Made by a program: the position numbers and the translations under genes. This document shows positions 53,128-60,168 of a stretch of 64,000 nucleotides of DNA, piece after piece. Location: assembly GCA_029775855.1 (NCBI GenBank), contig JARVJZ010000005.1:62001-126000 (forward strand), read 5' to 3'. Source of the DNA: Nitrososphaeria archaeon. GTDB lineage: Archaea; Thermoproteota; Nitrososphaeria; Nitrososphaerales; JAAOZN01. Every line of letters begins with the position of its first letter. Within the stretch, counting starts at the first letter, position 1. The notes under the pieces were generated by a model. It made no database searches. It was given only the letters and a program-made list of their open reading frames with translations, and was not told the DNA's origin.

Positions 53128-53607
53128 ATGGGCAAGAAAGGAAGGGAAGTAGTTGAGGGTGATGTCAACTTACTTATCAAGGAGCTTCAGAAGGCTCACG
53201 CCGATGAATGGATAGCATTCTACTACTACACTTTAGCATCTGAAGTAGCTGAAGGTAGAACCTCACCTATGATCATAGATGCCTTAAAAGACCTTGCTAA
53301 AGATGAACTTGAACACGCAAGCGAGCTAGCGGAGAGGATAATTGAACTCGGCTCAGAGCCGACTACAGATTTCGCCCAACTCACAAAGGTAGCAAACTAC
53401 CCTGAGGTTAAGCTGCCTAAAGACCCCAAGGATCTTGATGGCATAGTTAATGCAGTCATCGAAGCTGAAAGAGGGGCTATAGATGTATACAACAATTTGC
53501 TAAAGAAGCTGATGAAGGATTGGAAAGACCCAGTGACCTTCCACATAATACGGCATATAATGCAGGAAGAGGTGGCTCACGAAGAGAGGATGGAGGACAT
53601 CCTCTAG
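53128..53607 (+). CDS. Ferritin-like diiron protein (Dps-like/bacterioferritin family)
   Basis: LIKELQKAHADEWIAFYYYTLASEVAEG; ExxH motifs DELEHASEL and EEVAHEERM. Confidence 0.85.
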   Translation: MGKKGREVVEGDVNLLIKELQKAHADEWIAFYYYTLASEVAEGRTSPMIIDALKDLAKDELEHASELAERIIELGSEPTTDFAQLTKVANYPEVKLPKDPKDLDGIVNAVIEAERGAIDVYNNLLKKLMKDWKDPVTFHIIRHIMQEEVAHEERMEDIL

Positions 53608-57680: not shown

Positions 57681-58418
57681 TTATCCCTCCTCGGCTCCTA
57701 CATGTTCACCTAAAGCTATCTTCAAGATCTTTGTATGCTTCTTTTCATCTATGTCGATAGAGGTTAAGAGTGCTTTCACCGTTGGACTAGTTTCCTTCAA
57801 AAAGTCTAGTCTGCTATCAATAGCCTCATCCTCCATCTCTAAAACAGCCCTTAATGTTTGAAGCTCTGCGTCAGTAAAATATGGTTCATTTAATTTATCA
57901 AGCCTAGCGAAAATATGTGAAACTATGTCAGCATGCCTTAGGCTGTCTGCTGCTATCTGTCTGAATAGAAGTTCAATTAACTCATCTCTAATGTTGTCAG
58001 TAGCCTTAAGACAACGCTGCGCTGTTTTAATCTCTAACAACCTTCTAGCGTTAAGTAGAGCTGCTAATTCGCCAATCTCACCTTCAGCCTTAGGCTGCAT
58101 CTTTGAACCTTTTTTAAGCGAAATTATCTGTTTTGCAGCATCAAGTAGATTGAGTTCAACAGCATCCGCATCTAAACCTCCAGCAACCTTCTGCGTAAGC
58201 TCCTCAACAACCAACTGAGCCTCACCATCAAGTAACTCACGAAGCCTAACACCACGGCTACCCTTCATATACTGCGATACAGCAGCAGGCGTCACACAAA
58301 GCACGGTAGCCGCATCCTTCTTAGAAAAGCCGTATCTTGAGATAAGTAGAGCTGCAACAGACGCTCTTAAAGGTGGAATGATATCCTCACTTCTAACTCT
58401 CTTAAGTTTTTTATCCAT
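57681..58418 (-). CDS. Putative transcriptional regulator: N-terminal HTH plus C-terminal ferritin-like helical domain
   Basis: HTH ISRYGFSKKDAATVLCVTPAAVSQYMKGSRG. C-terminal helices with LLEIKTAQRC, IAADSLRHADIV, LEMEDEAIDSRLDFL and DIDEKKHTKIL. Divergent from ftr1. Confidence 0.7.
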   Translation of the reverse strand: MDKKLKRVRSEDIIPPLRASVAALLISRYGFSKKDAATVLCVTPAAVSQYMKGSRGVRLRELLDGEAQLVVEELTQKVAGGLDADAVELNLLDAAKQIISLKKGSKMQPKAEGEIGELAALLNARRLLEIKTAQRCLKATDNIRDELIELLFRQIAADSLRHADIVSHIFARLDKLNEPYFTDAELQTLRAVLEMEDEAIDSRLDFLKETSPTVKALLTSIDIDEKKHTKILKIALGEHVGAEEG

Positions 58419-58432
58419 TTGTTATTCACACT

Positions 58433-58451
58433 GTTAACCAGTTAAATTAAC
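58433..58451. promoter_or_regulatory. Palindromic element in the regulator/ftr1 intergenic region (candidate operator and/or promoter element)
   Basis: GTTAACCAGTTAAATTAAC contains GTTAAC and the palindrome GTTAA-A-TTAAC; another TTAAC at 58466-58470. Confidence 0.45.
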
Positions 58452-58504
58452 GCCGTAAGGATTATTTAACTCTATTTCCACTATATTTACTATAGGTGCC
58501 GTGT

Positions 58505-59392
58505 TTGATTGGGCAGACGCTGATTGCATTGAGAGAAGGGTTTGAAGCAGCTCTAATCACATCGATAATAATAGCATACCTTACCAGACTGAATCGAAAG
58601 GACTTGACAAAGCAAGTCTGGATAGGAGCCTATTTATCCCTAGCTTTAAGCGTATTGCTTGGCGCAGCCATCTGGTTCACATACGGAGCCATACCTAAGA
58701 GCACACAAGTTCTATTTGAAGGAGTAGCGGCTTGGATAGCAGTTATTGTTCTCACGTCGATGATATACTGGATGGCTTCAAAAGGTAGGAGGCTAAAGGA
58801 AGAAATCGAGCATAAGATAAACCAAATTATGCATAAAGAAGTTGTAGCAACATTTGGTAGCGGCTCCTCAACCTACCTTATCCGCACCTCAACACTAGCA
58901 TTTGCGGCTCTTAGCTTTGTTGTGGTGTTCAGAGAAGGCTTGGAGACCGTTCTCTTCCTTACACCATTCTTACTAAGTAGCGTATTTGAAACATTAGCCG
59001 GAGCAGCCGCAGGTATTGGCGTAGCATTCCTCTTATCCTACCTAATATTCAAAGTAGGCATGAAGCTAAACCTACGAAGATTTTTTTACTATACAAGCAT
59101 ACTCTTAACATTACTGGCAGCTGGTCTAGCTGGATACGGAACACACGAACTTCTAGAGTACTCCAAATCTGTAGGCTTAGACTTAGGCTGGCTCTCTAAA
59201 AACGCTTACGCATTAAACATACCAGACGATAGCATCCTACACCATAAAGGCGCCATAGGATCTATATTCGCTGTTATGTTCGGCTACACCATTAAGGCGG
59301 AGTGGCTTAGAGTATTTGTACATCTAATCTATTTAGCTGTAACTTTACCCCTTATACTATATGCCTACTCTAATAAGCGAAGCAGCAATTGA
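58505..59392 (+). CDS. ftr1: FTR1-family high-affinity iron permease
   Basis: Two REGxE motifs (LREGFEAALITSIIIAYL, FREGLETVLFLTPFLL), about 7 TM helices. TTG at 58505 gives the typical FTR1 N-terminus and sits ~22 nt after TATATTTA; the listed GTG is at 58496. Confidence 0.9.
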   Translation: MIGQTLIALREGFEAALITSIIIAYLTRLNRKDLTKQVWIGAYLSLALSVLLGAAIWFTYGAIPKSTQVLFEGVAAWIAVIVLTSMIYWMASKGRRLKEEIEHKINQIMHKEVVATFGSGSSTYLIRTSTLAFAALSFVVVFREGLETVLFLTPFLLSSVFETLAGAAAGIGVAFLLSYLIFKVGMKLNLRRFFYYTSILLTLLAAGLAGYGTHELLEYSKSVGLDLGWLSKNAYALNIPDDSILHHKGAIGSIFAVMFGYTIKAEWLRVFVHLIYLAVTLPLILYAYSNKRSSN

Positions 59393-59472: not shown

Positions 59473-60168
59473 ATGAGTGTAGGGGCAGAAGTCTCAAAAG
59501 TTTTGTCTAGCAGCTCAAGGTGGAAGATACTAGAAATACTAGCAAAAGGTCCTAAAGATATTAAGGCTATAGTGAAAGAAACAGGAATACAGCCCACAGC
59601 AGTCAGATATCACATACAATCACTACATCGGCTTGGATTAGTCGAAACCTACGAAGAAAAAGGCACCATCGGCAGACCACGCATATACTATAAACTCTCT
59701 AAAAAGCAAATCTCTGTAGGCTTCCCAGCTAGAAACTACATACTGCTAGCCACACTCCTAATAGAAGCGATAAAGCAGAACTTAGGCACAGAAGAGGCTA
59801 AAAAGTTAATTCATATAGCGGGGGTTAAAAAAGGGAAGGAGCTCGTAGAAGAGCTAACCTCAAAGTATAATATAACGAAGTGGAAACCACATGACTTCAA
59901 ATCAATCTATATTGAGGATTATCTTACTCAAATAGGTGTTCAACCCGAAGTAGTGAAGATGAGCAGCGATAGAATTGTCTTTAGAGAGCATAGCTGCCAA
60001 TTCTTAGAGCTGGCAACAAAGTATCCTGATTTGGTTTGTGATGTCCTTGACACAGCTATACACTCTGGCATAAGTGAAGCATTAAAGGATGTGAAGATAA
60101 CTAAAACCAAATGTATGGGACACGGCGACGAATTCTGCGAATACACAGTATCTTGGAAGAAGAGTTAA
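59473..60168 (+). CDS. HTH transcriptional regulator with C-terminal V4R/SufR-like Cys-rich domain
   Basis: ArsR-like wHTH (SRWKILEILAKGPKDIKAIVKETGIQPTAVRYHIQSL) plus EHSCQFLELATKYPDLVCDVL...KTKCMGHGDEFCEYTV. Confidence 0.85.
   Translation: MSVGAEVSKVLSSSSRWKILEILAKGPKDIKAIVKETGIQPTAVRYHIQSLHRLGLVETYEEKGTIGRPRIYYKLSKKQISVGFPARNYILLATLLIEAIKQNLGTEEAKKLIHIAGVKKGKELVEELTSKYNITKWKPHDFKSIYIEDYLTQIGVQPEVVKMSSDRIVFREHSCQFLELATKYPDLVCDVLDTAIHSGISEALKDVKITKTKCMGHGDEFCEYTVSWKKS

Follow-up and report, generated by a model that had tools for sequence, protein, structure and literature searches.

Introduction

The iron regulators known from prokaryotes draw on few sensor folds, those of DtxR, Fur and the Fe-S proteins of the Rrf2 type. 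In plants, iron is sensed by a diiron bundle in the hemerythrin-domain E3 ligases, which do not bind DNA directly (PMC12022348). We have analysed a 64,000-nucleotide stretch of a Nitrososphaeria archaeon contig, referred to hereafter as the window, in which the gene for a helix-turn-helix (HTH) protein with a ferritin-like C-terminal domain is divergent from an iron permease gene. One-component metalloregulators are a known kind of protein; the ferritin-like sensor is new as far as we have found. The open-access literature that was searched did not describe an HTH/ferritin-like regulator, which is weak negative evidence, and no model covering the fusion was returned by Pfam and NCBIfam scans. 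On balance, we lean towards the view that the protein represents a family of archaeal metalloregulators not described before. In this family, a ferritin-like diiron site with one Glu changed to Ser or Cys would be the direct iron sensor of a DNA-binding repressor, which would control four unrelated importer types via a conserved tandem operator.

Results

Architecture and predicted fold of the regulator

The gene and the domains of its product are arranged as follows.

57681..58418, minus strand: gene of the HTH plus ferritin-like regulator, with an ATG start and 245 aa; 50 full-length homologues including the window protein
58233..58391, minus strand: N-terminal XRE/Cro-type HTH, residues ~10-62, with HTH_3 in 36/48 and AlphaFold helices at pLDDT 91-96
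58113..58223, minus strand: linker helices, residues 66-79 and 84-102, from the AlphaFold secondary structure
57714..58079, minus strand: ferritin-like/rubrerythrin-like four-helix domain, residues 114-235, from AlphaFold and sequence profiles

Genomes of relatives and of the archaeal phylum at large were searched for homologues, which were given family labels (f1, the window's own, f9, f14 and so on). L009, which holds the same gene as L038, was left out of the alignments submitted to other programs and entered only scripted analyses. The open reading frame put forward in the original prediction is real, and the peptides quoted from it are all present in the product. The N-terminal HTH claimed for it was borne out. 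The window protein matched Pfam HTH_3 with E=8e-4, under the curated cut-off, and 36 of the 48 full-length homologues, each scanned singly, matched at E<=0.01; the full-length family profile matched 3op9 and the lambda-repressor-like 28tn. The linker helices that follow are a possible dimerisation region.

The sequence profiles likewise agreed with the claim of a ferritin-like C-terminal domain. The window protein gave a sub-threshold match to Pfam Rubrerythrin (PF02915; E=1.3e-3), and its C-terminal part alone reached E=2.2e-4; at 22.1 bits, the window protein falls slightly short of the curated cut-off of 22.8. Rubrerythrin was matched at E<=0.01 by 36/48 full-length homologues scanned singly, and at E<=1e-3 by 35 of 49 homologous C-terminal domains scanned alone. 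When a profile of the C-terminal domain was compared with the PDB, nearly all matches were ferritin-like or designed diiron four-helix proteins (best E=7e-4); they comprised bacterioferritins, COG1633 ferritin-like proteins, symerythrin and designed diiron four-helix bundles. The Pfam scan of the window protein gave no match to Fur (PF01475) or to Fe_dep_repr_C (PF02742).

The AlphaFold model used was built from 48 sequences and had a mean pLDDT of 86.8, while an input of 9 sequences gave a pLDDT of only 67. Its HTH helices span residues 10-29, 33-39 and 44-52, and its C-terminal helices residues 114-142, 146-173, 183-200 and 212-235. The four-helix ferritin-like fold that had been predicted stood in part: the sequence profiles and the four confident helices speak for it, while the model of the monomer failed to superpose on a closed bundle of the ferritin type. 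The top Foldseek matches of the monomer were ferritins, with a probability of ~0.96 but with E >0.2 and TM ~0.24-0.40. Sulerythrin, which was present among the structure matches of the regulator, is an archaeal relative that forms a domain-swapped dimer (PMC12833474). By analogy, a swapped dimer would explain the open AlphaFold monomer, as would wrong packing of the monomer; both are possible.

Five of six diiron-type ligands are invariant

The 50 full-length homologues were aligned for residue conservation, and the putative ligands of the window protein were located as follows.

58032..58034, minus strand: E129, helix-1 ligand, identical in 50/50
57933..57947, minus strand: D158-S159-L-R-H162, helix-2 motif, with D158 and H162 invariant
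57831..57833, minus strand: E196, helix-3 ligand, identical in 50/50
57735..57749, minus strand: D224-E225-K-K227-H228, helix-4 ExxH motif, with D224, E225, K227 and H228 in 50/50

R125, E129, D158, H162, E196, D224, E225, K227 and H228 were identical in all 50 homologues. The ligand letters that the original prediction had named were correct, and the presence of E129, H162, E196, E225 and H228 in every homologue is well beyond chance. Ligand conservation among homologues had been set as a test beforehand; five of the six ligands proved invariant. The canonical set of E, ExxH, E and ExxH is incomplete, as the helix-2 Glu is replaced in 50/50 proteins: position 159 is occupied by Ser in 43 homologues and by Cys in the other 7. 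This position aligns with the Glu of the helix-2 ExxH in bacterioferritin and in the Dps-like protein of the window. The hhalign comparison with the single Dps-like sequence was not significant; the ligand motifs nonetheless lined up. In bacterioferritin, the helix-2 Glu is a bridging carboxylate.

The five kept ligands, together with D158, D224 and K227, were unchanged down to ~25% sequence identity. As judged from the alignment, the presence of Ser or Cys for the helix-2 Glu is a conserved change, not decay, and the protein is a derived relative within the ferritin-like superfamily, not a canonical diiron protein. The earlier description of the domain as 'degenerate' is too strong, since one ligand is always Ser or Cys and the other five are kept. 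We infer that the sensor domain binds metal, iron included.

In many Feo- or Phn-linked homologues (L070, L076, L078, L084 and others of f25 and f30), the helix-3 Glu is followed by two additional His (EExxHxHSL), which may supply extra metal ligands; the window protein does not have them. A ferritin-like protein that stands alone and shares the DSLRH and DExxH motifs is encoded beside MobA/MobB-like genes (L017:1477-1908), and is a probable HTH-less relative of the sensor domain.

The regulator is divergent from metal importers of several types

58496..59392, plus strand: ftr1, FTR1/EfeU-type iron permease (PF03239, E=2.4e-69); homologues also divergent

The FTR1 gene that had been recognized next to the regulator is divergent from it at a distance of 77 bp; comparison with a same-genus relative suggests that its start is perhaps a TTG at 58505. 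An association with iron genes at other loci had also been set as a test, and was found with FTR1 in three families, FeoAB in one, ZIP in two, and PhnD/ZnuABC-type ABC systems. Outside f26, most lineages have a metal importer as the divergent partner, either FTR1, FeoA-FeoB, ZIP or a PhnD-type ABC transporter. FTR1 lies beside the regulator at six loci in three families: in f1, at the window locus and in two further genomes of the genus; in f14, in a pair of genomes with regulators ~28-30% identical; and in f30, in one genome. FeoA and/or FeoB are divergent at 11 of the 12 f25 loci, L089 having been read by hand; at L078, FeoB was seen and no ORF was called for FeoA. A ZIP-family transporter is divergent at three loci of families f9 and f72. 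The f72 protein matches Pfam Zip, and the f9 proteins belong to the same BLAST cluster but are without a Pfam match of their own. Six f30 loci have a divergent set of PhnD-type binding protein, ABC ATPase and permease, and at several f30 loci ZnuABC-type genes lie on the other side of the regulator.

When placed on the regulator tree, the partner types group by lineage, and FTR1 requires three changes, which indicates that the regulator was retained through exchanges of its partner. Genomes G125 (L070) and G224 (L071) have near-identical regulators (tree distance ~0.02), with FTR1 in one and PhnDCE in the other at the same locus. This swap suggests that FTR1 and the PhnD-type transporter do the same job, and therefore that the PhnD-type ABC transporter probably imports iron or another metal.

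HTH-only relatives of ~136-163 aa with a C-terminal CDxHH...CxxC motif were seen at L019, L021 and L023, and similar HTH-only matches occur in many genomes of the phylum; these are possibly metal- or Fe-S-binding regulators.

Candidate tandem operators precede the importer promoters

58425..58437, no strand assigned: candidate operator site 1, TTCACACTGTTAA, ~6 bp from the regulator start codon
58447..58459, no strand assigned: candidate operator site 2, TTAACGCCGTAAG, spaced 22 bp from site 1 and immediately preceding the TATA-like box of ftr1
58462..58469, plus strand: ftr1 TATA-like box TTATTTAA, read from the sequence, in the same place as TTAAAT/TATAT in relatives

A palindrome, TTWACRSYGTWAA, was seen by eye in the regions upstream of the regulator and then counted by script. 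With at most one mismatch, it occurred within 120 bp upstream at 24 of the 39 non-f26 loci, as compared with 0.16 expected from dinucleotide shuffles, a count made on the sequences from which the motif was derived and on loci that are related within one family. The motif is supported despite this test on the same data because it recurs in several families (f1, f9, f14, f25, f30, f45 and f72). When the consensus was loosened slightly, pairs with a spacing of 21-23 bp were found at 16/50 loci, against 0.0 in shuffles. The same search of 120 bp with at most one mismatch found TTWACRSYGTWAA at none of the 11 f26 loci; these have no metal-transporter neighbour, and their regulators keep all of the ligands. 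We infer that TTWACRSYGTWAA is bound by the regulator.

Read in the direction of the transporter, the elements are ordered as site, 8-10 bp, site, 0-5 bp and TATA-like box at FTR1, ZIP, FeoAB and PhnD promoters, an order that is recurrent though absent from some loci. The f30 importers have a further ATAACRSYGTTAT site shortly after the TATA-like box, a position that speaks for repression. Across the window genome, the exact site with at most two mismatches was found at 39 places, against 25 for a reversed-pattern control, so that it is not an abundant site there. Among the 29 loci that were opened, only the regulator-ftr1 locus had a paired intergenic site. The regulon of the regulator thus looks local.

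At three f45 loci (L080, L081 and L086), the operator motif lies upstream of the regulator and the neighbours are methyltransferase-like and HIT-family genes, not importers; the regulator perhaps controls its own gene there, with no importer alongside. A second palindrome, ATGCCGTATGGCAT-like (TGACGTATGTCA in L041), is present in the divergent intergenic regions of 3/3 ZIP-linked loci (L036, L037 and L041), just downstream of the ZIP TATA-like box; it is perhaps the site of another metal regulator.

Other regulators and neighbouring genes

The window genome (G000) encodes one DtxR-type protein, from a separate gene at C1:170185, and has no match to Fur (PF01475); Fur is present in the two f26 genomes tested. 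The idea that the HTH-ferritin-like protein is the only iron regulator of its genome was rejected, since DtxR is present. It would thus be an additional, apparently local, regulator.

The gene next after ftr1 (59473-60168, plus strand) encodes an ArsR-type HTH followed by an ATC_hydrolase/V4R-like C-terminal domain, with several Cys. Its best NCBIfam match is SufR (E=1e-12), far below cut-off, and the order of ftr1 and this gene is kept in two same-genus genomes; the product is possibly an Fe-S-sensing regulator. A Dps-like ferritin gene (53128-53607, plus strand; PF00210, E=4.5e-21) lies ~4 kb from the regulator, and a Dps-like gene is also nearby in a same-genus genome (L032).

Discussion

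We consider it probable that the protein represses the adjacent iron importer and its own gene in a metal-dependent manner, sensing via a modified diiron site. The N-terminal HTH would bind the 13-bp palindromes TTWACRSYGTWAA as a dimer. In the geometry that we propose, two dimers would occupy the shared intergenic region at a spacing of ~two DNA turns, one lying against the importer's BRE/TATA and the other close to where the regulator gene starts. The C-terminal domain would bind ferrous iron (or a comparable divalent metal) at E129, H162, E196, E225 and H228. In its metal-bound form, the regulator would repress both its own gene and the importer, which is ftr1 here and feoAB, ZIP or an ABC importer at other loci. 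Under iron scarcity, metal would be lost and transcription would resume. The loss of one carboxylate may weaken ferroxidase chemistry, possibly leaving the reversible metal binding that a sensor needs.

The protein might instead be an activator. The second site is directly upstream of the BRE/TATA-like box, a place also suited to an activator, and some archaeal activators, such as Ptr2, act from directly upstream of TATA. The metal-free protein on the paired sites would then recruit TBP/TFB and turn the importer on in iron scarcity, and metal would release it. We regard this as unlikely, because the f30 sites downstream of the TATA-like box and the site that lies within a few bp of the regulator start both fit repression better. 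Following the logic of PerR, the protein might alternatively sense peroxide or oxygen, oxidation of an iron-preloaded site, rather than its occupancy, altering DNA binding and adjusting uptake under oxidative stress. The closest sequence family, rubrerythrin, is a peroxide-reactive diiron family, and there is a Dps-like gene (53128-53607) at a distance of 4 kb, both of which fit such a sensor. The partners are metal importers, however, with no peroxidases in the neighbourhoods read, and one carboxylate of the canonical diiron site is absent in 50/50 homologues, so that we think this reading quite improbable.

The ZIP and ZnuABC-type partners in f9, f72 and f30 would suit a sensor of another divalent metal, Mn or Zn, with FTR1 as one of several targets. 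Such a sensor appears very doubtful given the FTR1 or FeoAB partners in f1, f14, f25 and one f30 genome, both of these being iron transporters, and given that a ferritin-type ligand set suits iron. The replacement of one of the six ligands could also mean that metal binding has been lost and that the C-terminal bundle is a dimerisation scaffold only, in a protein responding to another signal. To this we give hardly any credence, as the other five ligands, D158, D224 and K227 are identical in proteins with as little as ~25% identity.

If our preferred reading of metal-dependent repression is true, a ferritin-like sensor in a DNA-binding repressor adds another fold to those used in iron sensing, and shows a route from an iron storage or oxidation fold to a switch. 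For the study of iron homeostasis in a large archaeal phylum, of which much is uncultivated, the locus offers a regulator, an operator and a target that can be tested. PhnD-type ABC transporters are usually annotated as phosphonate importers; a metal role is suggested for them here, and if our reading of the family is true, those associated with it import iron or another metal.

Compared with described systems, the regulator resembles DtxR, IdeR and MntR in one-component, metal-sensing control of iron or manganese uptake, in palindromic operators over the promoter and in the co-repressor logic that we propose. It differs from them in having a ferritin-like sensor rather than the DtxR dimerisation domain, and an XRE-type HTH where theirs is a winged helix. 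With the Fur family it would share the logic of iron-uptake repression, but it lacks a Fur domain. Archaeal regulators of the ThiR/COG2522 type, which may be related, appear to have a similar HTH followed by a variable sensor domain; theirs is ThiN, whereas the sensor here is ferritin-like. The hemerythrin-domain sensors FBXL5 and BRUTUS also use a diiron-binding helical bundle to sense iron, but belong to another bundle family, are eukaryotic and act via ubiquitin ligases, not directly on DNA (PMC12022348). Rubrerythrin, bacterioferritin and sulerythrin likewise have four helices with a ligand pattern of E, (S)xxH, E and ExxH. The protein described here departs from them in having Ser or Cys for the helix-2 Glu and a fused DNA-binding domain, and by its anatomy it is neither an enzyme nor a storage cage.
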